A stretch of 64,000 nt of DNA. Source: Manis javanica (taxonomy: Eukaryota; Chordata; Mammalia; Pholidota; Manidae). The stretch lies in the NCBI RefSeq assembly GCF_040802235.1, contig NC_133166.1:2790001-2854000 (forward strand), read 5' to 3'. The position numbers and the translations under genes were made by a program. Positions 1,139 through 61,810 of the stretch are shown here, piece after piece. The notes beneath the pieces were generated by a model. The model was not told the DNA's origin and searched no databases. It saw only the letters and a list, made by a program, of their open reading frames with translations. The stretch's first letter is position 1. Each line of letters begins with the position of its first letter.

Positions 1139-1147
1139 ATGTCAAGC

Positions 1148-4930: not shown

Positions 4931-4950
4931 AACTAGCTTTCCTGCAGTGC

Positions 4951-7617: not shown

Positions 7618-7704
7618 ACTGTCAGTTAAGTATTGGGGAGTCAAACTCAGACATGCATCTACTGTGTGGGAGTCAGTGCCCTGAGCCCTGCATTGCTCAA
7701 GCTG
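7618..7704. mobile_element. Tigger-type DNA transposon remnant, unit 1
   Basis: Matches only the last part of the complete element at 48178-48501, including the inverted terminus (CATTGCTCAAGCTG versus CATTGCTCCAGGGCCAACTG). The left part is gone because the deletion that removed about 5 kb in units 1-3 ends inside it. Same remnant at about 19815-19904 and 30320-30410. Confidence 0.75.
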
Positions 7705-13358: not shown

Positions 13359-13367
13359 ATGTCAAGC

Positions 13368-13603
13368 ACTGATAGAGGACTTATTATGTGCAGGCATTTT
13401 TCTGAGCATTTTTACATATATTAACTGATATGATCCATACAATAACTCTAGGAAGTACAGAGTGTGACTGTATCCACTTGAGGGTTGAGGAAACTGAGGC
13501 ATGGGTGAACTAACCAAGGTCACTCAGATAGTGTCAAGATTCAAATAAAGGTATCCTGTCTTTAAAATATATTCTCATAAGTACAATGTCATGCTGTCTC
13601 TCC
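13368..13603 (+). repeat. MIR SINE, complete core, unit 2
   Basis: Equivalent of 1148-1383, nearly identical. Confidence 0.85.
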
Positions 13604-14219
13604 AATAAGGTTATCCTGAGTGGACAGGAAGTAGAAATAGAAAGTGGGACAGGAGGGACAAGTAAAAAAAGGATAGGCAAAGATCCTTGTTAAAATAATG
13701 ACTGAAGCATTGAGTTCATTTGACAACTAAAGTGGCCTAAATGCACAGCACAGAGCATCAGCAGCTATGTAACAGCTCCGTCCTAGACCTTTTTCTACTC
13801 CCCTTTATGGCGACTCTGTTTTGACTTCCTACTGTCTTAATCTACACTGATTGTTGCACAATGTATTTAAATATTTTTCTACTCCCTTGAGACTCATTTT
13901 GTTGAAGTTTCAATCTGATTCCAGGATTAAAAAATTGCAAATAATTGCCTGAGGGAGAGTGGCTTGGATATCTGTTAATTATTCTTGGAATGTCCCTTTA
14001 GGAAAAGCCAAAAGTATTTAATGCCTGACTGTGACTGTAACAGAATAAATAAATTATATAATATCATGAACACTGGGAATTATAGATCTGCTTTTGTCAG
14101 GATTCCAGTTACACAATATCATTGCATATAGTACAGACACACAAATACATATGCACACATATACATGCATATACACATAATGCATGAGTAAACGAAAGAG
14201 TGACTTCCTAGAGAGAGAT

Positions 14220-15406
14220 TGTATTGCAGTAGGGCAGGGACATGGGACAAGCATCATGATTAACTTTTCCTGCCTATGATGAAAAATGCCAAGATATGAA
14301 TAGTATAGTAAAACAGGAGAGACCCCATCTTAAGTCTAAAATTTCATTTTAAAAACCAGGGAGTTAGGAGGTAAGATTCCTAACATAATCTTTAGTAATC
14401 AGCCAGTAACCTATCTAAGGCAGGGGAGGTGATGTTACCTGATGTGTTTCCCAGTGCTTGCGGGAAACCGGTATCTTCGAGAAGAACAAGATCAATTAAC
14501 TCCTTGTGTTAAGTTTACCCTGCAGAATTATTTAGAGGACTGACTGTGGATGTTGACACAAAGTCTCTCACAAAAGAGAGACATCATGAGACTACATGTC
14601 AAGCCTACACACAACAAACTTACCTCCTCTTTGCCCCATTTTGGAAAGCCTTAAAAGACAGAATCCTAACCCCTTGCAGGGCCTCCTCTCTGAGGTTGCC
14701 TGCACTCTCCTTTCCTCAAGTGGGTACTTTTTGAATAAAGCCTCTTCACTGCTCAACTTATGGCCTTTTGTCTCTGTGCTCTTACAGTGCAAAGTGTTTT
14801 TGTCTGTTATTTCATTCTATTTTTCAGATGTAAGCAGAAGTCGTCACGCTGTCTGTTCTACTTCAGACAAGTAGGCAGGAAACTACTGAGAGCTCTGATT
14901 TGGGCTTGCAAGTTCCCTTCACTTGGGTGACCTGGACAGGACTGCAGCTGCATGATCCTGCTCTTTAGTAGCCTGCCTGAAAATCTCCTTTTTTTGCCTT
15001 TGGGAATTTGTCAGAACATAATCTCACTCATTCAGTGCTCTGGGGCTCCCCCAAATCTTGGGTTGGAAGGGGCTTAGTTCCTATGTTATGCAGATTCAAG
15101 AAGACAGTGGATGCCAGGTGACCCTGACTTTAGGAGTTGGCCAGAGATCTGCCCTATGCCGAGCGGGAGTTCAATGCACTTCCTTTTCATCCCTGTGCTG
15201 TTCCTTGCTCTCTGCTGCCCGCAAGACGGCTGCCGTTCACTGCTACTTTCACTTTAATGAGTTCCTTCCTTACCTACACTTGTCTGACCTGTTTGGGCAT
15301 TCTTTCTCATCCTGGGTCAAGAACCCTACCCATTCAGGTTGAGGTTTCACCAAGTGTTTCACCTAGTGCACAGAGAGACCTCCGCAGATGCAACTGCACA
15401 GCAACA
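14220..15406 (+). mobile_element. Long retroviral LTR (ERV1-like), unit 2
   Basis: Equivalent of 2000-3185, with few differences. Supports units 1 and 2 as the youngest pair. Confidence 0.6.
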
Positions 15407-16170
15407 ATACAATCCTGAACAAGAAAACATGTACTAACTAAGAATATTTTATGGATATGTAATTATAAGTTAATATAAGACAATGTCTCATGACATTGTT
15501 TCTGTCAACAGATCAGTGATAAATGTTTTCTTAATTTAGTCATAAAGTATCTTTCATCTGTTTTTAAGGATTTCTCTTTATCATTGGTTTTCTGAACTTT
15601 AATTACGATGCATTTTGATGTAATTTCCATTCTGCTTACATGGCTTAAAATTATTGTAGCTTCTCATATTTTGAGGAGTATAACTGTTTTTATAATAAGT
15701 TTTAATATGAATGCATTTAATTCTCCCATGGCAGAGATTGGCAGAACGGATTATTTTTAAAAATCATAATCCACCTATATGCTGTCTGCAAGAGACTTCC
15801 TTTGTTTCCACTTCATTCAGAAAAAACAATGTAAGAAAAAACAACATCAACGAAAAGTTGATTAAAACAACCAGTTTGTTTACTGACATAGAATTTAGCA
15901 AGATTTCTCTTGGGGTAAATGTGAGGTTCTATAGATAAACCAAAAAAAACGTTGAATTAAAAGCAAAAAATGTTGGGAAGGGTGTAAAATTTAATTGAGA
16001 CCTAAAATATGAGGACACATTTGGCTGAATTTAAAGGGGAAATAATCTATTGGTGAGATATAATTAGTCTTTGCACTGGAGCCAAAAATAATGTAATTAT
16101 ATCTATTAGAAATATTACTGTGACATTTGCCTTTTTCAGTTTATTAGAACAATATTCCACAAATTGAATA

Positions 16171-17112
16171 TCAGATATCAAGTTTGCACTGATTCTTAAA
16201 GAGCCTGTGGAAAGCATTTTTTACCTCTTTGTTCCTTAAGCTGTAGATCAAGGGGTTAAGCATGGGGATCACCAACGTGTAAAACACGGAGGCCATTTTA
16301 TCAGTATCAAAGGAGTGAGTGGATTTGGGCTGCATATACATAAATAGTAGAGAACCGTAAAACACAACCACCACCATCAGATGAGAACCACATGTGGAGA
16401 AAGCTTTTTTCCTGCCTTCTGCAGAATGCATTTGAAATATGGCTATTAAAATCAGCACGTAGGATGCTAGGATTACCAGGAGAGAAGAGATCAAATTAAA
16501 TGCTGAAAATACTATGAGCAACAATTCTATGTCTTCTGCATTTGAGCAGAGCATAAGTAGCAAGGGAACATCGTCACAGTAGAAATGACTGATGACATTA
16601 GTGCCACAGAAAGTCAAAGTAAAAATCTTAATAGTGAACAGTAGAGCCTGGAAGGTACCGTAGAGGTATGGAATGCCTACCAACACGTGGCAGAGTCTCT
16701 GGGACATGATGACATTGTAGAGCAGAGGGTGACAGATGGCCAAATAGCGGTCATAGGCCATAGCGGACAGGATGAAATATTCAGTGATAATGAACATCAG
16801 GAAGAAAGCCAACTGCGTGGCACATGCATAGTAGGAGATGGTATTCTGATCCACAATGAAATTTACCAGCATCTTGGGACAAATGACAGTAGAATTACCA
16901 AGATCAATGAAAGCCAGGTGCTTGATGAAAAAATACATAGGTGTGTGGAGGCGGGAGTCCACCTGGGTCAAGACGATCATGCCCAGGTTGCCCACCACCG
17001 TGACTGTGTAGATGATGAGGAAGACCCCAAAAAGTGGGGCCTGCAGCTCAGGCTGCCTTGTGACCCCCACCAAAATGAACTCAGTCAGCGATGTGAGGTT
17101 CTTTTGTTCCAT
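16171..17112 (-). CDS. Olfactory receptor, OR8K5-like, copy 2 (intact)
   Basis: Odorant G-protein-coupled receptor, 313 codons with every family hallmark present: NLT glycosylation site at 5-7, LHTPMYFF at 55-62, AYDRYLAIC at 119-127, SHFYCDD at 175-181, KAFSTCGSH at 236-244 and PMLNPLIY at 283-290. It differs from copy 1 only at residues 80 (Lys), 101 (Leu) and 299 (Asn). Leu101 is shared with copy 3, while copies 1 and 4 have Ser, a pattern that cuts across the unit tree. The leader between the splice acceptor and the ATG has a 2 nt change. A solo LTR lies 62 bp upstream, as in copies 1 and 3. No sign of inactivation. Confidence 0.95.
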   Translation of the reverse strand: MEQKNLTSLTEFILVGVTRQPELQAPLFGVFLIIYTVTVVGNLGMIVLTQVDSRLHTPMYFFIKHLAFIDLGNSTVICPKMLVNFIVDQNTISYYACATQLAFFLMFIITEYFILSAMAYDRYLAICHPLLYNVIMSQRLCHVLVGIPYLYGTFQALLFTIKIFTLTFCGTNVISHFYCDDVPLLLMLCSNAEDIELLLIVFSAFNLISSLLVILASYVLILIAIFQMHSAEGRKKAFSTCGSHLMVVVVFYGSLLFMYMQPKSTHSFDTDKMASVFYTLVIPMLNPLIYSLRNKEVKNAFHRLFKNQCKLDI

Positions 17113-17173
17113 TTGGTCCAGAGAGCTCTTCTAGGAGGAGGCAGAGGAGTTGTTACTAGCTTTCCTGCAGTGC

Positions 17174-17870
17174 TGAGGCAGGTGTGGGTTTAGTCAGAGT
17201 AGGGTGAGAGCCTGTGAGGAAGCGAAACAGGATAGTGGCAGGGCTTCAGGGAGAAAGAAAACAGTATAATTGCAGTCGGGACAATATAACAATGTACAAG
17301 GAAATTCCTACGGAAACTCCATGTTAAACATTAAGCAAAGTTAGAGGCACACAGATTCGTTAGGATAAAAATACCAAATTAGGAATATAGGCCGTCTTCA
17401 GGGGGATTGGTTATAGCAAAGGACAGCATTCAGGCAACAAGTAGTAAGAAACAGACAACTCAGCTTAACTTAAGATATAAACCCCTAGGCTCAGCCCAGC
17501 CAGGAGGACACCTGTCCCCTCCCAGCATGCTCCAGGAGCTCTGTGCTTTTGCTTTCTCCCTAAATAAAAAGTCTCTCTGTCCTACTTGCCTACCTTAAGC
17601 ATTAGTGACGTTCATTCTTTGACTTTGCGACCAAGAACCCAGGCATCATCTTTTGGAGGCTCGTCCTGGATGTCTCCATGCTCTCAGCCACGGAGAGGGC
17701 ATCTGCCATTCCCCACTACTCTCGCTTTAATGAGTGCCTCCCTTACCTGTACTCATTCCACCTGTGTGAGAATTCTTTCTTGTCCAGAGTCAAGAACCCT
17801 CCCCCATCCGGGCTGAGGATTCACCTGGTGTGCAGGTAGAGACCTCCCCAGACACAGCTGCCCAGTAACA
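17174..17870 (+). mobile_element. Solo LTR (ERV1-like) upstream of OR copy 2
   Basis: Equivalent of 4951-5646, at the same site 62 bp from the start codon and pointing away from it. A TATA box and AATAAA are both visible. Confidence 0.75.
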
Positions 17871-19100
17871 CTGTCAGCTAAACAAACTGTATTTGTAGAT
17901 AGAATGGACATTTTCCTACATAATAGGGAATAGAAGCATAATTCCCACATCCGATTTGGAAACTAAAATAAATGAGAATCTTTTACTTCCCAAGATGAGG
18001 GATCCATATGAAGCATATGCACTACATGCATGTAAACTCCATATAGTGTCAGTAATATTTGGAAGAAATCCATAGATTAAAAAAAACAGCGATATTAATA
18101 TAGAATTATTAGATGATTTTTCTCTACACAGTGGTATCACAATGTCTCTTTACTATGCTTCTTTTTTTGTCTGAGAATTCCTGTGGAATTTTGATGTTTT
18201 ACAAAGAGAGGCAGAGATAATATGAAGCCATAATGTTTTTCATTATTTTAATTTTAATTTTATTGTTGTGTGAAGAATATGAAACATGAGATCTACCCCA
18301 TTAGATTTTTAAGTGTACAACACAGTATGGTTAACTCTAGACCAGATGTTCTATAGCAGATCACAAAATCTTTTTTATCTTGTATAAGAGAGACTTCACA
18401 CTTTTTGATTAGCAATTCCCACATGATCCAACATCCAACATCTGGGTATTTATCAAAAAGAATTGCTACCAACGTCTTAAACAGGTATTAGTGCCCTGCC
18501 CATTCTTATTTGGAAAAGGATATCTCTGAGCAGTTTTGAACATCCTGATGTTTACATTTTAAATTCTTCCATTTAGGGCTAACCACCAAAGGAGACAAGA
18601 TAAAAAAAATATGCAAAGGGATGACTGACTTCTTAATCTTAAGGCATGGTGAAATCAGTTAGGAATGTTTTGAGTTTCAGAGCTTTCTCTATAACTCTTA
18701 AAAATAATTTCATTTATTTGCTAGTCTACTCAATCAGTTTGTAAAGCCTGTTGTTGAAAAACAATTAAGTAGCGAACAACCCAAAAGGGAAAACAAACTA
18801 CTAAAAAATCTAAACACCCATGCATAGAAGTCTTTATATTAAAATTATATGCAGTTTATAAAACATTCCATGGGGAATACATATTTTAAAATATTCTTTA
18901 TCAAATGTTGCATTGGATATGTTTATATAAAATAATATACATCAAATATTACATAGGACATATACTAAAAACGATGTGTTTATCTGAAATTCAAATGTAA
19001 TGGGGTGTCCTGTGGTTCATCTGGAAATCCCAGCTTAAATTAATAGCTTCTATTAGATGAGATCAGTAATGATGTTTCCAGTTATCTCTAGTTTCCCCTT
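17871..19100. other. Upstream spacer, unit 2
   Basis: Equivalent of 5647-6889; old LINE-1 pieces at about 18240-18500. No gene seen. Confidence 0.5.
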
Positions 19101-19390
19101 CAGTTGCAATACTCAAATTCCACTACACCTCTCACAGATCAAGTGGGTCTATGAAATCTAGTCATAGAATAGTCATAATCTAATGCTCTAAAAATACCAT
19201 ACTACCCCAGAGAACTCCAGTTAACAAAGGAGATAATGTCTGTTTGTGGTGTTGAGAAAGAATCAACTGTCAGTGACCATAACAGTGTCCATGGTCAGAA
19301 GCTCAGAATCATAGGAAATGACCAACGTCCAGATGATGATCAGATCAGCAATTCCTATCCACTCACCTTTAATGAGGAACTGGATTTTCT
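19101..19390. promoter_or_regulatory. Conserved upstream block, unit 2
   Basis: Equivalent of 6890-7175, 2.0-2.3 kb upstream of the copy 2 start codon. Function is inferred only from its higher conservation and TAAT-rich content. Confidence 0.4.
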
Positions 19391-19814
19391 TCCCCTAACT
19401 TGCTCTTTAGCTTTAATGAGTAGAATTTATGCATTTCCTCCCTTTTGTGATGCTCCCTGAAGAGGAGGAGGATGTCCAAATCACCTGAGATAAATTTTTT
19501 TAATGCCTTGTGGTGCCTACTAATTATCCAAGACACCCTACATATTCTCTAGTGAGAAAATAGAAGGGCCAATTCAAGCAAAGGAGCAAAACAACATGAC
19601 TGATACATACAGTTCCATGGAGACCTACATGATGTAAAGATACTCTCACAGAATCAATGATTAAAGTAATCATGGAAAACACTTTTACATAAACTTCAAC
19701 CCAGTGAAACTGTACAGTTTCAAAAGTAATGAAAACACTAGAAATAACCTTATCATCATCACACAGAACTTTTTCTTTGAATTTATTATTCTTATTATTT
19801 ATTATTAATAGAAC

Positions 19815-19904
19815 TTAACTATCAGTTAGGTTTTGGGGAGTCAAAGTCAGATACACATTTACTGTGTGGGAGTCAGTGCCCTGAGCCCTGCATTGCTCAA
19901 GCTG
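19815..19904. mobile_element. Tigger-type DNA transposon remnant, unit 2
   Basis: Right-hand end only, truncated at the same point as in unit 1. Confidence 0.75.
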
Positions 19905-20286
19905 TAATTGAACTTCTAACTTGTATTGGTAAATCTTCTTTCATTAGGACTGCACTGAAAACTGGATAATAGATAATATTTCCTTGAGAAATGTTATTCA
20001 GTTGGTGTTCTAAAAAGATGACTCAGAGAGTTAGATGACAGCTCTAAGTAATTCAACTTCTGCAGTGAAGAAAGTCTTCCATAACCTGTGTGTGTATATA
20101 ATGGCTACTGGTCACACTTGGCTACTGAGCAGTTGAATTGGACATAGTTCAAAGGATTGAAATTTAATTTTACTTACTTTTAATTTATACTTAAATATTC
20201 ACTCACTGCTGCAATGGAGAGTTCAGATGTGATGGACGGCTGTCATTTTCAATTTTGAAATATCTAGACTAAACATGATTGGAAGG

Positions 20287-22439
20287 TGTAACTCCCAGGG
20301 GGGGGAAATATTTTCCCAGCCCAGGGCATAACACCTTTGAACTGATATCAGTGAAAGAGAGAAATAAAGTGGGAGAAACCCGTTTATTACCCACAAGCAG
20401 TCATCCACTTGTGCTCACCTATCTCTCTCAAAACCTGGCTGCAGAAAAAAGGGGACCCAAGCTATCTGTTCATGATATGCCCTTGCTTCCCCTTGTAATT
20501 ATCTATTGATATGGCAATGCACCACGGCCAGATGGGAGATTCTGGAAATATTGCAATTTTACCCAGAGTCCACCACTCCAGAAATCTTGCCTCACAATAT
20601 ACTCATTCCTGTGTGAGAAAACTGGAGCACTATAACCAGACTCATAGCATACAATAGCAACAGCAGTGAAACCATGATATTCCTCAAGCCGGAGGATTCA
20701 TCTAAATTCAGAGTCCATTGCAGATTAAGTCCATAGCTCACCCATCTCACAGGTGCTAGTAGCTGAATGTATAGGGAGTTCAGAGCAGTCATCATGTGGC
20801 AGCTGCAGCCAGAGGGAGAGTCCAGGCCACAGGGACTATAGGAAAAAATATCCTTGAGGGTGATAAGATACATGTTTTAATGACACCAGCATAGGCAAAT
20901 CTTGTCCATAAGGTAGGATACATGTGAGAGAGTGGTCCTGTGATAGGAAAGTGGCAGGAATGGGATCTCGTCCTGGTCTAGTCTAGCAGACATTCACCCC
21001 TCCTCCCTTTGGAGTTACAGATGGGTCAATGTGGGGCTATGGGAGGTACATCCCTGGCCATAAAGATAAAACAAAACTTCTCCTAAAGGATACTCTTACC
21101 TCCTGGACATTTTGGGCACACTACCACGATCTTTGGGGGTCACTCTGCTGTTACTCCAAGAACACACACAGCCTGATTCCAGGCCTTTTCCCCAAGGAGC
21201 CAGAAGGGCCAGCTATTGCAAATCCTTGTGTCAAAATGCCCAGGGCCACATCCACTCAATAGAGTCCCCAGTGTTTAATGCAGTTGGAGCGGCAGCAGAT
21301 TGTTACTCTGATGACCATATCCTGGCTTCAGTAACACCTCCTTCATTTGCACATTCAGCTGTACAGGAGAGGCAGCAATGTGTATTAGCATGTCCATGGG
21401 GACCAAGACTCCTTTTTAGGGGTTCTCATTCAAATGCTGTAGCACTGTCCATAAGTGAACTGACCAGCTCAGAGGACTATTGGTGTCTGCCTTCAGGCCA
21501 GATTTCAACAAACCATTGTGCCTCTCTATCACATCTGCCCCAGGAGAGTCACATGGCGTATGAAACTTCTACTTTATTCCCAATTGCTGTACCTGCCCTT
21601 GTAACACATGTCCACTAAAGTGGGTGACTTGATCACTCTCAATCACCTGTGACAGGTCATAGGCTGCAAAGTGACAGTCTAGGACCCTTTTAGTGGTTTG
21701 CTGATCTGTATTACATGCAGGAAAAGCAACCAACAGTCTGGTAGCTGTGTCTACACAGGTCATGGCATACCAATACCCTTCGGACATGGGTGGAAGCCCA
21801 ATATAGTTTATCTGCCACCTGACAAAGGGGGTATTGGCCCCTTTATTGTTGGCTCCTCTTGCTGGGTGACACAGTGTAAGTCCCTCTTAAAGCACTCCAG
21901 GCACTTCTTCTGGTCTCCACTGACTTCCTCAAAAGTCAATAGAAAGACCCACAAACAGCTATAGCCTACGTTGACTTTTGCCCCACAAGCAACAAATGTT
22001 GACATAACCATTGGGCTACATCAGAGGCAGGCTTTCCTTCTAGCCAGCACACCTGGGCCATGTGTCGGCTCATCATTCCCTGGGGGGATGCCAAAGGCAA
22101 ATGGCCAGTCACATGATATATGGTAACAGTGTTAGTTTGACCAGAGACCTATAGGTCTTGCCACAACTCTTACCCACAAAGGGGTCAGTGACCAACCATC
22201 CACTTGGCATGGTACCAGGTTGGTAGCCACAGGTTGAATCCGATACAGTTTGACTGTCAGTGCAGACAGCTATTGGGGAAGGCTCCTGGGTGATCACAAG
22301 TCATACTGCCTGGAGCTCAGCCCATTGGCTGCTCTTCCCCTCTCCATCCTCCATCCATATTGTCTCAGTCTTAGGATGGAAGCCACAGCCCTCCACCTCA
22401 GGTACTGAAGGCGAAACCCGATGATACATTGGCTTGGAT
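20287..22439 (-). mobile_element. ERVL-class retroviral fossil, unit 3
   Basis: Equivalent of 8094-10205: probable LTR at 20287-20596, then integrase-like and RNase H-like remains reading leftward. Degraded, with many breaks. Confidence 0.75.
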
Positions 22440-23009
22440 TTCCTGGCTTCAAGAAACCATCAAAAGTTTAATCAGAAATTCCTTATGAAAAGTTCAAGCA
22501 AAGCACATTTAAAAGAGCCTGATCATTCGCTGTTTTTGCTGCATTTATGTAAATAATCAAGCCAAGTGTTTTGAAGCTTAATATGGTTACCACTAATAAA
22601 AATGAGGGTGATTTTTAGAGAGAAAAGAAGTATGTTTCAATAGTATAGACTTATTGGTATTAGATTCTAATCCTAGTCATTGTGAAATAGACTGGACCCT
22701 GACTTCTGATTTCCTCAAAATACCTATGACTCCCCAAACATTTCCAAATTCCTCCCATCATTTCACTTGGAGGCTTCCTGCTCCCAGGCCTTATATTCGG
22801 CCATGCATTCTTCATCTCCGTACCAAGATTTTTCCCTCCAGAACAAATAATCTGACCCCAGATGCTGCTTGGACAGAGATTTCCACCCACTCCTCATGCT
22901 GATAAGGATGTACATTAGCAACCCCACAACCAAGCTGCACCCTCCTTTCATGTGCTGTTGTCCATCCGAGCCACTGCTAAGACCTCTCCATGACCATGAC
23001 GTCTTTGCC

Positions 23010-23852
23010 TGACAGGCAGCAAAGAAACTAATCGATAGAGTCTCTCAGATTCATCAGCAGCTTTCAGAATCATGGGAGATTTTAGTCCCACTTTAGAGAG
23101 ACTGGGCATCCTGGCTACTCCCTTAATTGGACCCCTACTGATGCTTTTCCAAGCTCTCATATTAGGACCATGTTTACTTAATGTTCTAATAAAATTTGTT
23201 TCCTCTGATTTAAAGTCCACAAGCTTCAGATGGTGATGCAAATGGAACCCCCTATCACAGTCCTCATGACTTTTGCCATGAGCCACCAGATAGACAAGTC
23301 AGAGACTGAACCCAGACTGCCCTTCCCAGCCACCCCCCATTGCCAGCAGGAAGCAGCTTGAGTGGACTTTGTCCTTCTACATTACGGCAGACAGCATTAC
23401 CTCTTCTGAGGGGACATTGAGGCAGTTGTCAGTCCAACACTGGCATCTAGAACTCAAGGCCCCAGACACAGGCAGACAGAATGCAGGGTGAGATAGAACT
23501 CAGGGTCCCAGTAAGGCACAGGTAGAAGGGACCTAGGGTCAAGTCTTCTCAGTAAACAAGAAGTCTCATCCTGGACATTTGGGAAAAACAGTCTGAGAAA
23601 CCAGGTGAGTTTTTCTTTCCCTTGATGCTAGCTCAGCCACAGCAGGAGTCCCCAGCAACAACTCCCAGCCACTTGCATGGTTTCTCCAGTTTTGGGCTTA
23701 TAAACCCTGGACACTGCAGCTCCACGGTGTCCTCCCTTGGACCCCCTCCTGGTAAGCAGGAGCTTTCCTTTCTTCTTTCACTCTTTTATTAAACTATGCT
23801 GGTGGCTCCATTCTCCTGTCAGCTGGCTTCATTCTTTGTCACCTCTAAGACA
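23010..23852 (+). mobile_element. ERV1-class retroviral fossil (env end plus 3' LTR), unit 3
   Basis: Equivalent of 10780-11616; LTR at about 23418-23852 with a TATA box near 23699. Broken fragment. Confidence 0.65.
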
Positions 23853-25158
23853 CGGTCCTGGGAAAAGGAGCTTCTCAGTCAGTATAATTGCTATATGCTT
23901 TCTATCTTGTTTTTTTCAAAAATTCATCATGATACTTGTCTCCTATCTCTGCCCTCCATCAAAACGACAAGGGAAACAATTTTCAGGAATATGGAAAGAA
24001 CCCAAATTTGATTGACAATTGTTTGCTGGTCCGCACAATAACTATGAGGGGGCACAAAGAGGAATTTTAACAGGCTTAGCCACATCCCTCCCTGTCTCCC
24101 ACACCTAGTTTACATTAGAATATAGCATGTGAGGTGCTGGCTCTCTTCCCGGAGCATGTCCTCTGTCTATATTCTTTTTGTGTGGTTGGAGGAGGGTGGG
24201 AGGTTAAAGTTTTTCTGAGTATTTTGGGTCTCGATTGTTCTCTTGGGCCTGGATTGTTCTCAACTCTGAAATCATCTGCGGTTCACAGTGAGTGGCACAT
24301 ATTGGAGCCGCCTGCCCTTGGTCCCTACACCATGCATCCAGGAGGACCTAAGTAAGAGACCTTGTTTTTCAGTTTCCTGCTAGTGGTTCCTCATATTCAT
24401 CTTACAATCATAAAAAGAACCACCAGGGCTGGTCCAGCCATACATTGGCTCAGGTAGGTAAATGTGGAAGTTTCTCAAAAGGACTGTGGGCTCAGCTGAG
24501 TTTTAGCATCATTATGGACAGACTGAGATCACAGAAACATACATTCATTGAAACGTTGGTAAAGTATGCTTTGAAGGGGGCAAGGGATTTTGAAGTGCTT
24601 GTTTCAATACAGCTACTATGACTTACTCCTTGTTACCTAAAATCCTTTTAAGTATGTCAAGAGATCTATCTATATTTTAGGTCTTCTTTTTCAAATGTTT
24701 AAGTAATTTGTAAAACTAACATCTAAACCTAAACCATAAACCTTACCTTATTGACATGATTGTCTGTTTAAAATTGCAAAACATAAAAAGACTTTTCTGA
24801 ACTGTTGGGCATTGATGCATCAGGACATGACTAGGAAACTTCTAACCACTAAACTTGCATTTCAATACCTCTCATTGTAATACTTCTCAGCTAGTTTACC
24901 CATTACAAAATCTAATGCTGTTATTTGTAAATTTTACAGTTTTGGTATTAATATATTGTCCACATTTGCCACACCTCATGTTTCTGTATATTGAATCACT
25001 TCTTCTAATGATCTTCCAATCATACATCCCCCTTTCGTGGAAAAAGGATTTGGCTGTTGTGACTATTTATGAATTTGTAATGGAGACTAATATAAAAAGG
25101 CCAAGTGGAAAGACCACAAATGAATAATATAGGGTTCCAGAGTGAGTAGCCCCCAAGA
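23853..25158. other. Unassigned segment, units 3/4 type
   Basis: Equivalent of 11617-12826, but matches unit 4 (34359-35668) better, including a short inserted stretch near 24815-24890. No gene seen. Confidence 0.4.
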
Positions 25159-39040: not shown

Positions 39041-39982
39041 TTAGATACCAAGTTTGCACTGATTCTTAAAGAGCCTGTGGAAAGCATTTTTTACCTCTTT
39101 GTTCCTTAAGCTGTAGATCAAGGGGTTAAGCATGGGGATCACCAGCGTGTAAAACACGGAGGCCATTTTATCAGTATCAAAGGAGTGAGTGGATTTGGGC
39201 TGCGTGTACATAAATAGTAGAGAACCGTAAAACACAACCACCACCATCACATGAGAACCACATGTGGAGAAAGCTTTTTTCCTGCCTTCTGCAGAATGCA
39301 TTTGAAATATGGCTATTAAAATCAGTACGTAGGATGCTAGGATTACCAGGAGAGAAGAGATCAAATTAAATGCTGAAAATACTATGAGCAACAATTCTAT
39401 GTCTTGTGCATTTGAGCAGAGTATAAGTAGCAAGGGAACATCGTCACAGTAGAAATGACTGATGACATTAGTGCCACAGAAAGTCAATGTAAAAATCTTG
39501 ATAGTGAACAGTAGAGCCTGGAAGGTACCGCAGAGGTATGGAATGCCTACCAACACGTGGCAGAGTCTCTGGGACATGATGACATTGTAGAGCAGAGGGT
39601 GACAGATGGCCAAATAGCGGTCATAGGCCATAGCGGACAGGATGAAATATTCAGCGATAATGAACATCAGGAAGAAAGCCGACTGCGTGGCACATGCATA
39701 GTAGGAGATGGTATTCTGATCCACAGTGAAATTTACCAGCATCTCGGGACAAATGACAGTAGAATTACCAAGATCAATGAAAGCCAGGTGTTTGATGAAA
39801 AAATACATAGGTGTGTGGAGGCGGGAGTCCACCTGGGTCAAGACGATCATGCCCAGGTTGCCCACCACCGCGACTGTGTAGATGATGAGGAAGACCCCAA
39901 AAAGTGGGGCCTGCAGCTCAGGCTGCCTTGTGACCCCCACCAAAATGAACTCAGTCAGCGATGTGAGGTTCTTTTGTTCCAT
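39041..39982 (-). CDS. Olfactory receptor, OR8K5-like, copy 4 (intact, ancestral right flank)
   Basis: Odorant G-protein-coupled receptor of 313 codons with all hallmarks, including the normal LHTPMYFF at 55-62, AYDRYLAIC at 119-127 and PMLNPLIY at 283-290. Compared with copy 1 it differs at about ten residues (T38A, I87T, T110A, Y151C, M187I, E193Q, L245V, M260T, K299N, D312G) and about 15 bases, so most differences change the protein. Ser101 is shared with copy 1. It is the only copy without an LTR close upstream: the sequence from the splice acceptor runs directly into the ancestral spacer. It is the best candidate for the positional equivalent of human OR8K5, lying next to the OR5J2-like genes. 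Confidence 0.95.
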   Translation of the reverse strand: MEQKNLTSLTEFILVGVTRQPELQAPLFGVFLIIYTVAVVGNLGMIVLTQVDSRLHTPMYFFIKHLAFIDLGNSTVICPEMLVNFTVDQNTISYYACATQSAFFLMFIIAEYFILSAMAYDRYLAICHPLLYNVIMSQRLCHVLVGIPYLCGTFQALLFTIKIFTLTFCGTNVISHFYCDDVPLLLILCSNAQDIELLLIVFSAFNLISSLLVILASYVLILIAIFQMHSAEGRKKAFSTCGSHVMVVVVFYGSLLFMYTQPKSTHSFDTDKMASVFYTLVIPMLNPLIYSLRNKEVKNAFHRLFKNQCKLGI

Positions 39983-48906: not shown

Positions 48907-50586
48907 ACTTATCCATTTTGGCACACATTTTGGTACTTTCTAAGCAGCATATGAAAAATTGTGAAATTAATAGGCTAATAATTTATCAAAGGAAATTAAA
49001 ACATTCTTTTGCATTTCCATTTGTCATTTTAAATAACAGGAAACAGATATTTAAATTGGGGAAATATAAATTAGTTGACCAAAGTACTTTTTCATTTCTT
49101 TATATTCATCCACATCTATCCTTAAAAAATAACCTCACATAGCAATTGTCTAGTGGTGTATTATTTATCTAACTTCTTAACTGACTACCAACCCATCTTC
49201 CTATGTTATCTATAATCAGAGTACATATTATACACCCAAAGCAACACTTAGCATTTTTCTTGTAATATCTTTTCATCTTTTCAGTAATCATGTCACATAG
49301 ATGTAATCATACGCAGTCTGATAGCAGAGAGATGAATTTCTCAAAGTCAATTAAAAGGGACAACAATATATGTAATCCCTGGTTGGGCTAATGCCACCCA
49401 CTTCCCTTTTGTGGCAACTGAAATATATTAATCGCATATATATAGAATTAACATAGATAATCCAGATTTTATCCTTGTTTTTATTTCATTTAAAAAACAT
49501 TTGTAAATTCCTTCTCTTAACTCTTACGACTATGGGAAAGATGAGTTCTATAATTTTCTGGAGATGTTGAATCTTATCAAAATACAAGTTGAATTAAAAG
49601 TATAAATAATCAAACTATCTAAGAAAATCAGATTTAGAAAACCATAATGATTATATATATTTATCAGTATATGAAGGATATGAAAAAAAATGCTCCAGAG
49701 CAATTGATTATTTTGGTTATACACATTTTAATTTTATCTTATTCCATATATGTGTGTGAGTGTGTGATGCTATTATTTACATATACAGATATATAGCAAC
49801 TATTTAAGTACATTGAATAAACTCCTTATCCATATAGCAATGTATATAAAAACACCTTAATGCAAAAAAATAAATATACAATTTATTTATTTGGGACCTC
49901 GCATAATTTATGAAATCTTCTACTGCTCTATTTGAGCAAGGTGGTGCTCCAAGGATTCCACAGAGGGTCTCTTTCCATGGGGCTCATAAGTAGGCATCAG
50001 AAAAGGCCAGAGAGACTCATGCACTTTAAAGGGTATCATGTATCCTCTTTGGAAGTCAGGCCCTCACCTCATAATCTTTGCCTGTTGTCTGGTTATCGTA
50101 CTGTTTTTGTGATTTAACTGCATAGTTAATAGTGCATAGTTAATTGCATAGCTGATTTGAAATCTTGTCTTTTACTCCTTTTATATCTAAAAATGAAGAG
50201 TTCAGAAGAGGGCTTAAATTTTATTTTGTAAATTCATTTTACTTGCTGTCAGTGTCACTCTTGGTAGCATCATATCCCTACAGATGCAGGAACTTTGGAG
50301 ACAGACTGAAATTTTTGAAAGCACTTTTTCTTTTTTTTTGCATACTTCCCTTTGGGATAGAATCAAAGCTAGCACTAAAAATAAATAAATAAATAAAATT
50401 AAGAGACAATCTGGTCAAGCGTCTTCTATGAGAAATGAGAAGACTCAGGTTCAACAAAATAGTGAATGATCCAAGATACAAGTCTATAAATGTTTCTATT
50501 TGCTTTTACTGAATACCAGATTCTCCTCAGTCTATTCTAATCCCTTTAATTTATCCATCACAGATTTCAGGATAAAGAATTAACAA
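48907..50586. other. Single-copy spacer upstream of the OR5J2-like pseudogene
   Basis: AT-rich, with no gene or named repeat seen. About 50280-50586 is a diverged match to 55400-55668 ahead of the intact OR5J2-like gene. A candidate splice acceptor (CCATCACAG) ends at 50563, 23 nt before the ATG. Confidence 0.5.
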
Positions 50587-51525
50587 ATGGCTGAAGAGAA
50601 TTTTACGGTTGTTACTGCATTTATTCTTTTGGGGCTGACAGACTGCGCTGAACAGAAAGTAATGCTTTTTGTGTTGTTCCTGGGGATCTAAGCCATCACC
50701 CTGGTGGGGAATCTGGGCATGATCTTCATAATCCGAATCACACCCAAGCTCCACACACCCATGTACTTTTTCCTCAGCTGCCTGTCATTTGTAGATGCCT
50801 GCTACTCATCTGCAATCGCACCCAAAATGCTAATCAACCTCCTGGTTGTGAGGGGAACCATTTCTTTCTCTGCTTGCATGGTACAACATTTGTATTTCGG
50901 GGTGTTTATTACCACAGAAGGCTTCTTGCTGTCGGTGATGGCATATGACCGGTACGTGGCCATTGTGAACCCTCTGCTTTACACGGCAGCCATGTCTAAG
51001 AGGAAGTGTGTAGGGCTGGTTGCTGGGTCATGGATATGTGGAACAATTAACTCGCTGATACACACAGTAAGCTTAGGCAGACTGTCCTTTTGTAGGCTGA
51101 ATATTGTCCGCCACTTCTTCTGTGATATTCCCTCGCTCCTAAAGCTGTCATGTTCGGATACCTCCGTCAATGAGCTGTTGCTCTTAGTCTTCTCTGGAGT
51201 CATTGCCATGGCCACCTTTTTGATTGTGATCATTTCGTATGTGTTTATTGTGCTCGCCATTCTGAGGATCCGCTCCGCAGAAGGGAGACTGAAAGCCTTC
51301 TCCACCTGTGCCTCTCACCTGACGGCAGTGACCATATTCTACGGCACCTTAAGTTTTAGTTACATCCAGCCGAGCTCCCAGTATTCTGTAGAACAGGAGA
51401 AGGTGGTTGCTGTGTTCTATACGCTAGTGATTCCCATGCTGAACCCGCTGATTTACAATCTGAGGAACAGAGAGGTGAAGGATGCTGTGAAAAGGGCCAT
51501 AGAAACAAAACAACTCTCCTGTTAA
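50587..51525 (+). pseudogene. OR5J2-like olfactory receptor pseudogene, single nonsense codon
   Basis: A full-length 312-codon receptor frame whose only visible lesion is TAA at 50689-50691, codon 35, where the intact paralogue has TAT (Tyr, in TM1). Everything after it is open: [25 protein letters not shown] and PMLNPLIY. Re-initiation at Met45 (50719) or at the in-frame ATG at 50704 would lose the N-terminus and half of TM1, so a working receptor is unlikely. From codon 36 it differs from the gene at 55669-56607 at only four residues (89, 103, 108 and 291), but before that at nine of 34. The single stop suggests recent loss; it might even be variable within the species. Confidence 0.9.
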
Positions 51526-51845
51526 TCTCAAGACCTTGTCACTTCTACAATATTCTACCCGTCAGTTCTTCACTTGTAGCATTCACATGAATTCAATGAA
51601 TTTTAGAGTTTCTAAGTATAATACAAATCATTTTATTTTACATATTAATTTTTCACACGAGGAAGCAAGACTAGAAAGTAAAAGTGACTTTATGTACAAC
51701 TGCATTTTAGAAAGGTAACTTAAATCTCAGTTCACTAGACTATTAATATTTATATCAATCAATTTTAATACAATCAATTTAATAATTTTTTTTAATCCAT
51801 AGAATTGTGAGCATCTTTTCTGATTAGGGGAAAACTTCACATGTG

Positions 51846-51902
<57 letters not shown>

Positions 51903-54900
51903 ATATAAAGATTATATATATATATAGCAGATATAATGAATTACAGATCTTTCTAGTATACTTAAAAAATTATTTAGAAAGTTAATTTTATACATATTTT
52001 CTTTTATTTTTAAAACTTGCGTTACATTTTAAGTATTGGTAAGTCCCCATGTTAAATAAAAAGAAGGCTATGAATACAAATTACATTTTCCAACTACTAG
52101 TTATTTGCCTACTTTTATTCCTTTTAGACATCAGTGACTTTAGCAACTGAAAGATGAGTTATGAGAAAATGACCCTATTATAATCCTCAGCTTGCAACAA
52201 TATATTCTTCCTTAAAAAAAAATCCACCATAAAAGACAGATAACTTGTATAAAATGATTCCATTTTGGAATAAGTAAAATTCAGCCCCCTTCCCATCCAT
52301 CTGTCCTTTCAAGAATTGACTTCATGTTCTTTCAAGATTGAAGAAAAGTCCAGCAATCTTCAAATCACATGATGGATGTTAATGCCTGCCTGAAGTTTCA
52401 TTCTATAATGATGGATTACTTGATTAACTTCATTACTTCTCCTGATTTTAGAAATCATGCTGTAAAAAATATTATAATAAAAAGTTTAAAATAAAAATAA
52501 CAGATTATGTTCAATGTTCTGCATTTTGGGAGCCTGTATTAACGATTTCCTATCAGACAACCTGAGGTTTTCAAAACTGATGAGAAAGTTTAAACTAGTT
52601 AAACAATTCTACATTTGCTAATGGATACCTGACAATGAATACAGTTAATATGCTAGAAAGAATGACAAGGTTTAGAAAAGAAAAGCAATTGTTATTTTTC
52701 CAATGAACAATGACAATAACAAAGCTATTATAAAGTGGTTTTTGCATATACATTTGGTAACACATGGGTCACGAAATTAGGTTGATTTAAAGTAATATGT
52801 TATTCATTCATGTGGGATATAAGTCAAATTCCATGAAAATGTTGTTTTGTAGAGAATAACCATCTTCATTATTATAGTACTAACAGTTCATACCATAATG
52901 TGTTTAATTGAAGTATAACACTGACTTCTCTGACAAGCATTCTTATGTATGCATATATATCTCCATGCATATTCATATAAGAAGAATCAAAACGAAAAAA
53001 AATGGACCAGTACAAAAAAATCAACTTGTCCCAGTTCATTTTAGAAACCTGAATTGCCATTCAGCTGTGACAGAATGGTCTGGATTTTTTCTCAACTAGA
53101 TTTTGATAAGAAGAGGTTATGCACATAAAAGGTGAAAATAGCACCTGGAACTTCCATGCATGTTTTTAAATGTGTATTTGTAGTAGAAAGTGAATATGTT
53201 GGTGTATTCCATAGAAATAAGAATTCAATAGGAAAATGACACTGGATCTTGGCTATGTTTAAGCAAACAGCAACATTATAGGACATTGTTTAAAGAAGCA
53301 CACATATACAGATAATGTGTGAATAATTATATTTAACAAACCTTGACTTCACAACTATTAAGGACAATCATATTTTCTGTAGATTTTGAAAGGTCCAGTC
53401 CATATTATATCTTAATGAAATGTATGCAGTTTATTCTAATTATTCACAATTAAAATTTCTGCTATTTTTTCACCCTTGGCTCTATTTGCTTTCCAGTGTA
53501 TAACATTTTTTTATATTACCATCTTCAAGAAGCCAGTTCCTCTGGTATCCCTAGAGAAAGTCCTTTGAGAATCTTGAACACAATCCCAAATGTAATTTTT
53601 GGGTTGTTGTGATTGACTTAGTGTAATCAGATTCTGAACTACAGGGATTCTGGCCTCATTAGAACAGAAAAATGCGTGCATACACACATTCATATGTGTA
53701 TATATATATATACCTTTCCCTTCTTTCAACTTTGCCTTATTTGAGGAAATAATTAAAGATGTGAAACCATCATTCTTTTTTTTTTGATGTGTCTGTTTTA
53801 CATTGTTTTACTTGGTTTTATCTTAGTTTTTGTTTTAACCTAGAATGATATTCAGTTACCTACCATTAAAATCTTGATCATTCTGAACCGCAGAAAATAT
53901 CAACTGGTTTCATTTCTAAGAAAAGAGTAAAAAACATGGAAATAGACTTGAGCATTCTAAATGAATTGATATACCAAGCTTTTTTACATCATTGGTAAGT
54001 CCATTCCTTCTAATGTTTTCCTTTTTCTTTTAATTGCATCATTTTTAGCATTCATCCTGTAAATAATTGAAAATTTCAAATATGTTAGGTTCTTATCAGT
54101 GTTTTGAATCATATAGTTCATATAAGTTGCATCCATATCTTATATAATTCAATTCTCAACACTGTCATCCAATTTTGCTGCCAAAGTTATATAGTTTTAT
54201 AACTGGATTGCTAATATAATTTCTAATTCCTTTTAAATATTCTATTTCCCAAATAGTAGTTTACAACAAAATTCATGTCTATAAGTAATCTCCTTTTTTA
54301 ATGGGAAATTTTTCAGTTAATACTCTAAGAGTAGCAAAAGAAAGAACAGGTATAAGATTTATAAAAGTACAGTTTTGAAATATACAGACTTATTATTTGT
54401 GGGAAATGCTCTCCCATACTGTCAAATCTGTTGGTATTCTTTCAAAAGTTTGTGAGACATCCTGAAAAAATATGTGCTTATTTTATATATCTCACATTGA
54501 CAAGGCCAGTTTATAAACAAAAAATTGAGATGTCCATTTGATAACTCAAATCAAGGAATAAATACAAAAAGATTTATTTGGGAAGTAAAGATAATTCTAT
54601 CCTGGATCAAGAAAGCTAAATAACTTTTCTGATGAAATAAAACCTGTTATTGTCAACATTAGGATTTGACTGAAGATTAATAGATTCCTACCATCTCTCT
54701 GTTGTGGCAATCAAAACATTTTAATTAAAACAAGTAAGTAGTGTCAATTATACATAGGCCAAAATAATCACTTCTCATAATTTCTCAGACAACAACCCAA
54801 TTTAAAGAAAACGTCTTTCAAATTTCTGCCTTCTAAATTGTTATGCCCGCTTTCTAAAATTCTGCTTCCTGTTTTTCAAAATTATATAACATTTCAGAAA

Positions 54901-55645
54901 AAGCAGGAGGCTCCATGTAGTCCAGATATGCAAGAATCAGTATTCTGTGTCCTCAGTCTCAGAGTGAGACACCGTCTAGAGCTCCTGTCCAATCACAGGG
55001 AAAATTGTCCCGAAGCAACAATCCTGGCTACTTGTAATAGGTATCATGCGAAAAGCAGGCTTTTCTTTCATGACTTTCAGAGTTAGCTGTTGCCCCCCAA
55101 TGCATCCCATGATCTCAGAAGCCACAATTTGGTATTTTTAAATGTCATTACTGTTTGCACCTGAGCCACCTTATTTCATGATAATGGCCAATTTGCTATC
55201 TACACTATGGTACCCGTAGATCATTTCTACATATAACTTCAAAATATGTATAACTGACCCCAAAACAAAACAGAACAGATCAGAAGAGAATTTCATTGAA
55301 TCACAACTTTCCAAAAATATGTAATATACATGCTATTAATTTTAATTCCCATTAGTGCTATCATTTCCTTAGTGCTAGTAAACTTTGTTATTGAGGTAGT
55401 TATTTTAGAGACAGACTGAAACTGTGAGAATGAAACACTCCACGATTGGTTTTTTGACATATAATCATATAAAATAACAACCCTGGGAAGAAAATTAGAG
55501 ATGATCTAGCCCACTTGCTAATTTTATTAATGATGAAACTCAGATTCAAAGAAGCGGTATGAGACTCACATCAGTGACTGTATTCATTTGATTGTACTTT
55601 ATTTTCCTCTAATAAATTATAAATCCCCTTTTTTTCTCACAATAG
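51526..55645. other. Spacer between the two OR5J2-like copies
   Basis: AT-rich, no gene recognised. The first 200 bp are a diverged match to sequence after 56607, so the pair arose by an older duplication of about 5.1 kb spacing. It contains a TA microsatellite (51848-51900). The frame of 82 codons at 54838-55086 has no recognisable similarity and I do not call it a gene. Confidence 0.5.
51848..51900. repeat. (TA)n microsatellite
   Basis: About 53 bp of uninterrupted TA repeats, followed by a shorter TA tract near 51913-51926. Likely variable in length. Confidence 0.95.
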
Positions 55646-55700
55646 ATTTTTGTGAAAAGAAGAAATGAATGGCTGGAGGGAATTTTACATTTGTTACTGA
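55624..55700 (+). promoter_or_regulatory. Splice acceptor and overlapping upstream ORF at the OR5J2-like start
   Basis: A pyrimidine run ends in CTCACAATAG at 55645, a good 3' splice site, leaving a 23 nt leader. In that leader an ATG at 55665 precedes the receptor ATG (55669) by 4 nt in another frame and encodes 11 residues, stopping at 55698-55700. It has a purine at -3, whereas the receptor ATG has T there, so it could lower initiation at the receptor start. The pseudogene copy lacks this upstream ATG. Confidence 0.55.
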
Positions 55701-56607
55701 GTTTATTCTTTCGGGGCTGACAGACCGCGCTGAACTGAAAGTGACGCTTTTTGTGCTGTTCCTGGGTATCTATGCCATCACCCTGGTGGGGAATCTGGGC
55801 ATGATCTTCATAATCCGAATCACACCCAAGCTCCACACACCCATGTACTTTTTCCTCAGCTGCCTGTCATTTGTAGATGCCTGCTACTCATCTGCAATCG
55901 CACCCAAAATGCTAATCAACCTCCTGGTTGTGAAGGGAACCATTTCTTTCTCTGCTTGCATGGTACAACATTTGTGTTTCGGGGTGTTTGTTACCACAGA
56001 AGGCTTCTTGCTGTCGGTGATGGCATATGACCGGTACGTGGCCATTGTGAACCCTCTGCTTTACACGGCAGCCATGTCTAAGAGGAAGTGTGTAGGGCTG
56101 GTTGCTGGGTCATGGATATGTGGAACAATTAACTCACTGATACACACAGTAAGCTTAGGCAGACTGTCCTTTTGTAGGCTGAATATTGTCCGCCACTTCT
56201 TCTGTGATATTCCCTCGCTCCTAAAGCTGTCATGTTCGGATACCTCCGTCAATGAGCTGTTGCTCTTAGTCTTCTCTGGAGTCATTGCCATGGCCACCTT
56301 TTTGATTGTGATCATTTCGTATGTGTTCATTGTGCTCGCCATTCTGAGGATCCGCTCCGCAGAAGGGAGACTGAAAGCCTTCTCCACCTGTGCCTCTCAC
56401 CTGACGGCAGTGACCATATTCTACGGCACCTTAAGTTTTAGTTACATCCAGCCGAGCTCCCAGTATTCTGTAGAACAGGAGAAGGTGGTTGCTGTGTTCT
56501 ATACGCTAGTGATTCCCATGCTGAACCCGCTGATTTACAGTCTGAGGAACAGAGAGGTGAAGGATGCTGTGAAAAGGGCCATAGAAACAAAACAACTCTC
56601 CTGTTAA
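55669..56607 (+). CDS. OR5J2: Olfactory receptor, OR5J2-like (intact)
   Basis: Odorant G-protein-coupled receptor of 312 codons. Hallmarks: N-glycosylation site NFT at 5-7, GN at 41-42, LHTPMYFF at 55-62, Cys97 paired with the loop cysteines, [10 protein letters not shown] at 118-127 (Val in place of the usual Cys at 127), [16 protein letters not shown] at 176-191, KAFSTCASH at 236-244 and PMLNPLIY at 283-290. Long stretches such as [16 protein letters not shown] and [16 protein letters not shown] match my memory of human OR5J2. The start is the ATG matching the family N-terminus; an ATG 4 nt earlier is out of frame. The next receptor to the left in the window is a pseudogene copy of this gene. 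No inactivating change is seen. Confidence 0.93.
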
Positions 56608-57269
56608 TTCAAGACTTTGCTAATCCTGAACTGTCTGCCAGTCAGTTCTCACTTCCAAGAATTCCATAGGTGTTACAGCTTCTAAAGATTGTAAAGATGT
56701 TTTTATTCTATATGCTTATTTGTTATATGAAGAGGCAGCCAGAAAGGGAAAGCTGTTTAATTCCCACACCCGAATCACAAAAATAGCCTATCCCATAGGT
56801 CTTCTGACATTCTAGGCTGTGAGTCTCTGAATCAGTATAAATGCCATAATACATTTATATTTTTCTCTTATTTGGAGAAAGGAATTGTTTAATATTTGCT
56901 TGCATTTAAGTACATAAAAACAGGGTGTGCACAAAGAAAACATAATTGGTTGTCAAATTTCCAAGAATATAGATATAACTATAACTGACATATGCCTCTC
57001 AACAATCATAACGTTAAGGATAACAAAAATTTATATGAAATTTAATAAAACATCCATTTGACCATTCTTTTAGAAGTCTTGGGTTATGTTTTCATTTCTG
57101 TGACTATTTAACTTTGCTATTTTTTCTTATGTTTGGAATAATTAGCTCCCATTTGCCTATGCTGAGTATATTACACACATACAATAAAATAAATAAAATA
57201 AGCGTATTATGTGAGTCCTATAACTTTGATCTTTAATTTTTAATTCTTTGGTCTGTTCTAATTTCTTTG
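56608..57269. other. Downstream flank of OR5J2-like gene
   Basis: The first 100-150 bp are a diverged match to sequence after 51525. AATAAA-type words occur near 57044 and 57184; either might serve as the receptor polyadenylation signal, unproven. Confidence 0.4.
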
Positions 57270-58080
57270 CCTTTCCGTTCATTTTAGAATCAGTTTGCAG
57301 ATTGCGCTCACTCAAGTATCAGATCTAACAAGGACTGTATTTCCAATCCATAAGCAAAATATTGTCTCCACATACATGTCACTGATTCTTTTCCTCAGTA
57401 TTTTGCTGTGTTCGATATGTTGATTTAGGGCATATTTTGTTCAACTTATAAATGTTTCATGCTTTTGATTTTACTGTAGTAAGTTATATATTTGCTTAAA
57501 CTTCAAATTCTTTATTTCATATATACAGAAATACAAAGGATTCTGCATGTTGGCCTGGTTCACTGTGAATTTGTTGTATTCGATTATTAGTTCTAGTCAC
57601 TTTTACAAATTCAGTTTCTACACCAACAACCATGTCAGCTACACAGAGAAACAATTTTATTTATTTGTTTCAGCTCTATGTGTCATTTTATTTACATTCC
57701 TCATCTTATTGCACAGGCTGGGATCTCCATTATGGTCTATAATTGTTGTAGTAAGAAAAACAGCCTTGCCTTCTTCCAATTTTAATGGGCAAATATTCAT
57801 CCTTTCATCATTAAGTATGATGTTCACTCTACGTTTTATTGTAGATATCCTGTATCTTTTTTTAGGAAGTCACTTTCTGTTTCCAGACTGTTGAGAGATC
57901 ATTTTATTTGATGCTATAAATGGAAAGTGAATTTCATCAAATGCTTTTTCTGCATCAACTGAGAAATTCATACATTTTTTTCTCTTTATGCTGCTGATAC
58001 AATTAGTTACATTATTGATATTTGAATGTTGAACCAGGCACCCTGCAGACCAGTATGGTTATGTGTTCTATTTTTATTCC
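57270..58080 (-). mobile_element. Ancient LINE-1 ORF2 fragment
   Basis: The plus-strand text is antisense to LINE-1 ORF2: TTATTGCACAGGCTGGGA, CATTAAGTATGATGTTCACT, CAAATGCTTTTTCTGCATC and a GATATTTGAATGTTGAACCA stretch occur in the expected order. Diverged; the 115-codon plus-strand frame here is a shadow. Confidence 0.8.
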
Positions 58081-60868: not shown

Positions 60869-61810
60869 CTAATGAAAAAGATTACATAGTTTTTTCCACA
60901 TTTTTTGCACTGCATATTTTATGTCTCTGTTCCTCAAGCTATAGATCAAGGGATTTAACATGGGGATAACAAGGGTGTAAAATATGGAAGCCACTTTATC
61001 AGTGTCAAAGGAATGACTGGACTCCGGTTGCACATACATAAATATCAAAGTCCCATAGAACACTGTGACCACTGTCAGGTGGGACCCACAGGTGGAAAAA
61101 GCCTTGTGCCTGCCCTCGGCAGATTTCATCCTGAGAATGGCTACAATGATGAGCATGTAAGACACAAGAACTATCAGAAGAGATGAAATCAAATCAAAAC
61201 CAGCTAAAATCAGAATAATCATTTCAGTTTCATGTATATTTGAGCAGAGCAAAGATAACAAGGGGAGACTGTCACAGTAGAAATGACTAATAATATTATA
61301 GCCACAGAATGACAAATTAAAGATCTTTATAGTGACTAGAAGAGAAACAAATGTGCTGTAGAGATAGGGGACTGCCACCAGCCCCTGACATACCCTTGGT
61401 GACATGATGACTGGGTAAAGCAGAGGTTTACAGATGGCCACATAGCGGTCATAGGACATTGCCGACAGAATGAAAATTTCACTAACAATGAATACAAGAA
61501 AAAAAGCTAGTTGTATAGCACAAAAACAGTAAGAGATTGTATTTTGATCTACAACAAAACTTACCAACATTTTGGGTCCCACAGCTGTTGCATAACCGAG
61601 GTCAGTGAGAGCCAGGTGTCTGAGGAAGAAGTACATGGGGGTCTGGAGCCTGGGGTCCACCTTGGTGAGGGTGATCAGGCCCAAGTTGCCCAACACTGAG
61701 ATCGTGTAGATGGTCAGGAAGAGCCCAAATAAGGGGGCCTGCAGCTCAGGGCGATCTGTGATTCCCATGAGGATGAATTCATTCAGCACTGTTAGATTTT
61801 GTGTTTCCAT
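60869..61810 (-). CDS. Olfactory receptor, OR8K3-like (intact)
   Basis: Odorant G-protein-coupled receptor of 313 codons. Hallmarks: NLT at 5-7, GN at 41-42, LQTPMYFF at 55-62, SMSYDRYVAIC-type motif at 117-127, SHFYCDSLPLL at 175-185, KAFSTCGSH at 236-244 and PMLNPLIY at 283-290. It belongs to the same subfamily as the four OR8K5-like genes, but the LGYATAVGPKMLVSFVVDQN and VTIKIFNLSFCGYNIISHFYCDSL regions (stretches around 72-90 and 159-182) are closer to my memory of human OR8K3. A candidate splice acceptor (TCTCTGTCCAG, minus strand) ends near 61833, about 22 nt upstream of the ATG. It lies outside the tandem array and shows no damage. Confidence 0.92.
   Translation of the reverse strand: METQNLTVLNEFILMGITDRPELQAPLFGLFLTIYTISVLGNLGLITLTKVDPRLQTPMYFFLRHLALTDLGYATAVGPKMLVSFVVDQNTISYCFCAIQLAFFLVFIVSEIFILSAMSYDRYVAICKPLLYPVIMSPRVCQGLVAVPYLYSTFVSLLVTIKIFNLSFCGYNIISHFYCDSLPLLSLLCSNIHETEMIILILAGFDLISSLLIVLVSYMLIIVAILRMKSAEGRHKAFSTCGSHLTVVTVFYGTLIFMYVQPESSHSFDTDKVASIFYTLVIPMLNPLIYSLRNRDIKYAVQKMWKKLCNLFH

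Follow-up and report, generated by a model that had tools for sequence, protein, structure and literature searches.

A mosaic OR5J olfactory receptor pseudogene in the Sunda pangolin, Manis javanica, probably produced by recent gene conversion from its intact paralogue

The window analysed here comprises 64,000 nucleotides of the Manis javanica genome (assembly GCF_040802235.1, contig NC_133166.1, positions 2,790,001 to 2,854,000), and all coordinates given below count from its first base. It holds two OR5J-like coding exons on the + strand, spaced 5,082 bp apart, and every part of the two copies described below lies on that strand. The downstream one, copy B (55669-56607), is an intact OR5J2-type olfactory receptor gene of 312 amino acids with matches to the Pfam families PF13853 (E 8.9e-53) and PF00001, and is the putative donor of the event discussed here. 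The upstream one, copy A (50587-51525), is an OR5J pseudogene and the putative acceptor: it carries a stop at codon 35, and its remaining frame is open to codon 312. An OR8K3-like gene (60869-61810), 99% identical to an M. javanica protein, adjoins; an Rfam scan returned zero matches.

Other placental mammals possess two OR5J paralogues, OR5J2 and OR5J3, the latter named OR1052 in many records. Among the matches listed, copy B has its closest named relative in a protein of Manis pentadactyla (96%), and no named Manis javanica OR5J protein occurs among the best 120 matches, which are what both of our protein comparisons cover. The protein set comprises 106 of at least 138 proteins, all of 300 to 372 residues: three pangolin sequences, namely P0001 and P0002, counted as pangolin on similarity alone, and P0003 of M. 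pentadactyla, and 103 outgroups, of which 12 are cats, so that the rows are not independent, and of which two fox records (P0047 and P0057) are of low quality according to their source. The outgroups were sorted into 43 OR5J2 and 60 OR5J3 sequences on residue 76 alone, a rule that places P0099 and P0114 (marmot), with OR5J3-type residues at most informative sites, in the OR5J2 group.

Copies A and B align without gaps over 939 bp and differ at 20 positions in total, which are very unevenly distributed: 14 of the 105 positions up to 50691 differ (13.3%; codons 1-35, 50587-50691), as against 6 of the following 834 (0.72%). A previous sequence-only reading of this locus had estimated about 15 and about 6 differences for these two parts, had proposed a recent gene conversion over codons 36-312, and had named uniform divergence as the pattern that would speak against it. 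Both estimates agree closely with our counts, and the divergence is far from uniform: the best position for a single change point is immediately after base 105, the likelihood gain there was matched in 0 of 2000 permutations, and over all sites the step has a Fisher p of 4.6e-10. The low-divergence block extends one base 3' of the stop codon, which gives a shortest tract of 835 bp in copy A (50692-51526), corresponding to 55774-56608 in copy B, with six differences that are all transitions. The return of divergence had been placed at the stop codon itself; the flank is indeed diverged, but the block ends one base later. On the left side, the edge of the tract can lie anywhere from 50691 to the next difference at 50852.

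Codons 36-312 include the receptor core, where strong protein constraint is generally expected, and purifying selection might have held this part of the two copies alike while the N-terminus and the flanks drifted. The same step, however, is found at synonymous sites, of which 5 of 25 differ in codons 1-35 (pS 0.198) and 2 of 214 in codons 36-312 (pS 0.0093; Fisher p = 1.5e-4), and protein constraint is therefore not its cause. An excess of identity at synonymous sites, on which the case for conversion had been made to depend, is thereby present. Furthermore, a pseudogene is not expected to be held under such selection. The identity of the A and B proteins in codons 36-312 reaches 98.6%, compared to 75.8 to 93.9% in ten paralogue pairs of other mammals, which were chosen by name, include Ursus and Canis pairs made of two species per genus, and are represented by one copy where a species has several of OR5J3 type (Choloepus, Elephas). 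Seven of these ten pairs are less alike in codons 36-312 than in codons 1-35, the segment in which the identity between A and B (76.5%) is the lowest among all 11 pairs. We consider selection without conversion an extremely improbable explanation.

The sequences on both sides of the exon are homologous between the two copies but strongly diverged. The 5' flank of copy A (50189-50586) aligns with 55267-55668 and differs at 117 of 362 aligned positions (32%); this homology is recognisable back to 50189, with a score of 39 that none of 100 base shuffles attained (19.3 +/- 2.4). The 3' flank (51527-51684) aligns with 56609-56752, and 43 of 145 positions differ when it is counted from 51526 (30%). 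Past 51684 no homology with copy B was seen: the score of 51685-52685 against 56753-57753 was reached by 44 of 100 shuffles. K2P distances amount to 0.42 and 0.39 in the 5' and 3' flanks, and to 0.0072 in the tract. High identity restricted to the coding exon could also mean that copy A arose lately, as a partial duplicate or retrocopy of the B coding region. Against this, codons 1-35, the 5' flank and the 3' flank are homologous in register at 13%, 32% and 30% divergence, which indicates that copy A already was an old co-linear paralogue and leaves a young duplicate hardly credible.

The tract itself appears young: 20 of the 21 CpG sites in the tract of copy A are also CpG in copy B, which, together with the restriction of the differences to transitions, fits a recent origin. 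An assembler may confuse near-identical blocks separated by 5 kb, and it is conceivable that reads of copy B were misplaced into copy A. The block nevertheless holds six differences between A and B that a simple copy of B would lack, one of them S291N, where all 103 outgroups have serine, and we regard such an artefact as very improbable.

Phylogenetic trees inferred from the two parts of the protein (FastTree, midpoint root) are discordant. In the tree from codons 1-35, copy B groups with P0001-P0003 and copy A falls outside (support 0.77); this tree is based on 35 residues only, and the support for the placement of A itself is 0.0. In the tree from codons 36-312, all five pangolin rows come together with a support of 1.0. 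Within them, copy A sits with P0001-P0003 and not with copy B (support 0.86), which probably reflects residue 89, a lysine in B and an arginine in the other four rows. At this codon of the intact gene (55933-55935), the near-identical P0001 shares the arginine of the pseudogene, and the difference is possibly allelic. With the sharp step, the synonymous sites, the diverged homologous flanks and these discordant trees, the proposal of a recent conversion over codons 36-312 stands.

The comparison of the sequences leads us to the view, to which we give a probability of about 85%, that the 835-bp block in pseudogene A was most likely pasted from the intact gene B by interlocus gene conversion once the lineages of M. 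javanica and M. pentadactyla had diverged. DNA synthesis on the misaligned copy B would have repaired a break in copy A; the 3' limit of the event would lie where homology drops to about 70%, and its 5' limit within the exon near codon 35. Copy A, as the presumed acceptor, may have been dead already or have died soon afterwards and then drifted, while copy B would have stayed intact throughout.

With two copies alone, such a block is symmetric, and the opposite event has to be considered, in which copy A, its tract still intact, overwrote copy B and the conversion ended just before the nonsense codon. Several sites are in accordance with this alternative: the lysine at codon 89 is apparently derived in B and not in A (arginine in P0001-P0003), a CpG of copy A at 51053-51054 is CA in copy B, and the OR5J3-like residues F149 and G151 occur in M. 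pentadactyla and not in B. The direction is rather indicated by residues that occur in less than 10% of the 103 outgroups and are common to B, P0002 and P0003. Copy A has all nine of those in the tract and one of the four in codons 1-35 (Fisher p 0.014), or five of five and one of four at a threshold of 5% (p 0.048), in a post hoc test on protein states at few sites. The derived residues which B shares with M. pentadactyla are all in the tract of A and are mostly missing before it, which argues for a transfer from B to A; under the opposite direction, copy A would need to have possessed all nine beforehand. Of the residues conserved in at least 95% of the 103 outgroups, 18 lie in codons 1-35 and 150 in the tract. 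Copy A departs from two of the former, by E11A and the stop, and from two of the latter, of which that at 295 is also altered in B; copy B departs from one in each segment. These counts are small, but they likewise weigh against A as the source. We infer that the intact gene 55669-56607 was the donor, and consider the reverse transfer unlikely.

The nonsense codon of copy A (50689-50691) reads TAA, compared to TAT in copy B, and its third base is the final difference before the tract. The sequence-only reading had pointed to this position exactly at the tract edge. The position holds, but its weight is small: a tract will by necessity end next to a difference, and the codon supplies one of the 14 differences found to the left of the edge, which makes its location weak evidence. 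Of the two scenarios offered there, a conversion that stopped just short of repairing the stop agrees better with the direction from gene to pseudogene than one that ended just before transferring it. The nonsense mutation may predate or postdate the conversion. In the first case the tract ended just short of replacing codon 35; in the second its actual edge may be situated slightly more to the 5' side. Close by, codon 33 (50683-50685 in A, 55765-55767 in B) is a glycine in both copies and in 2 of 103 sequences elsewhere, encoded by GGG in A and GGT in B; a common glycine with different third bases may reflect an older exchange upstream of the present tract.

At three of the six tract differences (Y103, I108 and N291), copy A differs from the other four pangolin rows. 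The asparagine at 291 is as expected from drift without constraint. I108 is the usual state of OR5J3 (58 of 60), and this residue and Y103 might alternatively be remnants of the older sequence of copy A.

For the age of the event, residues A146 (5 of 103 outgroups) and E232 (2 of 103) are informative: both occur in the two copies and in neither P0002 nor P0003, a pattern which suggests that the conversion is likely later than the M. pentadactyla split. At a substitution rate of 2.2e-9 per site per year, the tract distance of 0.0072 corresponds very roughly to 1.6 million years. At the rate of 1.47e-8 per generation with the one-year generation used in PMC8288997, it corresponds to roughly 0.25 million years. 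Simple clocks would thus put the event at about 0.2 to 2 million years ago. The split from M. pentadactyla is dated in PMC10551234 to 22.6 Ma (17.1-28.2), with 12.9 Ma (10.3-15.6) given there for earlier work.

The question arises which receptor was overwritten. We found 15 residues diagnostic for the two paralogues at a threshold of 0.6, all within codons 76-222; when sites were drawn at random from the 79 variable ones, so short a span came up in 3 of 20,000 draws. At a looser threshold of 0.4, 5 of 21 diagnostic sites lie outside it (20, 50, 223, 229 and 258). Copy B is of OR5J2 type at 14 of the 15 sites and uninformative at one, and P0001, P0002 and P0003 are of OR5J2 type at most of them. 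Copy A shows OR5J2-type residues at 11 sites, OR5J3-type residues at two (89 and 108) and uninformative residues at two (103 and 158). None of the 15 sites falls into its unconverted codons 1-35, and an assignment of copy A to OR5J3 from that segment consequently failed. No pangolin OR5J3-type protein occurs among the best 120 matches to a cat OR5J3-type query. This absence and the number of loci suggest that the overwritten copy A is likely the former OR5J3 (OR1052) locus. A separate peculiarity concerns codons 146-151, where the OR5J2 of M. pentadactyla (P0003) and P0002 carry F149 and G151, residues resembling OR5J3, and copy B carries neither; this could possibly be a small patch received from an OR5J3-type sequence.

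Mosaic proteins are also apparent in carnivores. The OR5J3-type protein of Canis lupus and the OR5J2 of Canis aureus show 18 differences among 120 residues in codons 1-120 and 3 among 167 in codons 146-312. In the pair of Ursus maritimus and U. americanus, 0 of 33 residues differ in codons 34-66, 21 of 124 in 67-190, and 2 of 122 in 191-312. Canid receptors classed as OR5J3 type (P0031, P0035 and P0047) are not uniform. From about codon 145, the sequence is largely of OR5J2 type in Canis lupus and Vulpes lagopus, and in Vulpes vulpes it is not: V. vulpes, a low-quality record, is of OR5J3 type at 149-183, and V. lagopus is of OR5J2 type at most of those sites. To judge from these protein sequences, the canid pattern suggests a conversion that is recent or still sorting. 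Within species, the paralogues are more alike than expected in codons 1-75, 76-222 and 223-312 alike (permutation p between 0.0002 and 0.0036 across these segments and three subsets of the pairs). The idea of a core shielded from exchange is only partly borne out, given that the excess identity is not confined to the ends; exchange reaches codons 76-222 too.

The OR8K family, with four genes in the same window, shows comparable features. Copies 1 (3948-4889) and 4 (39041-39982) have 4 synonymous differences in 226 sites (pS 0.018), and divergence reaches 13.5% in the 600 bp that follow the coding exon; the figure of 28% obtained upstream is unreliable, as homology is interrupted there. The pattern suggests a homogenisation centred on the exon in this second receptor family. 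Between the tandem units 1-12554 and 12221-24812, divergence per 250 bp is 0 to 3.6% as far as about position 5000 and 1.6 to 14.1% thereafter. The sharp step between copies 1 and 2 near 4998, just upstream of the OR8K gene, would represent either a staged duplication or another conversion tract of larger size. The mosaic OR5J proteins of canids and bears and the homogenised OR8K genes suggest that conversion recurs. More tentatively, and with somewhat less than even confidence, we propose that OR5J2 and OR5J3 exchanged exon segments throughout placental evolution, with paralogue identity surviving mainly in the core (codons 76-222), and that the transfer in the Sunda pangolin swept a dead OR5J3 core and so erased the OR5J3 type from the lineage.

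Gene conversion could accordingly delete a receptor type while the number of loci stays unchanged, and it masks the age of duplicates. Dating a pseudogene such as copy A by whole-gene divergence is misleading, because codons 36-312 look very recent and the flanks very old. The apparent OR5J2/OR5J3 mosaics of pangolins, canids and bears provide a natural series on which receptor segments tolerate exchange. In the literature searched, no paper dealt with both OR5J2 and OR5J3, and a search for Olfr1052 yielded nothing relevant, judged by title and the beginning of the abstract.

Conversion among olfactory receptor coding regions is already known and ordinary in this gene family, and the pangolin tract is a well-resolved further case. 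The primary work, cited in a later review, is reportedly that of Sharon et al. 1999. As described in that review (PMC1995454), conversion of whole olfactory receptor coding regions homogenises paralogues and possibly contributes to the rebirth of pseudogenes. Homogenised paralogues and mosaic receptors are what we observe as well; compared to the cases treated in PMC1995454, the pangolin tract reported here has mapped edges, and its acceptor retains a stop just upstream. Olfactory receptors are also listed as a hotspot of interlocus gene conversion in mammalian segmental duplications (PMC3790853); in contrast to such duplications, near-identity here is limited to the exon, and the flanks are about 30% diverged. 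In dogs, low linkage disequilibrium within olfactory receptor genes suggests gene conversion (PMC2635374), which is similar to our results in that conversion within these genes is ongoing, and canids show OR5J mosaics too; the dog signal is a population signal across 109 genes, whereas ours is a single mapped tract. Within pangolins, nonallelic gene conversion has been described for the HGT-KRTAP genes, for which a recent duplication could not be completely excluded (PMC9848057). Both cases represent tandem genes homogenised in pangolins, in a keratin-associated family there and in a pair of a receptor gene and a pseudogene here.
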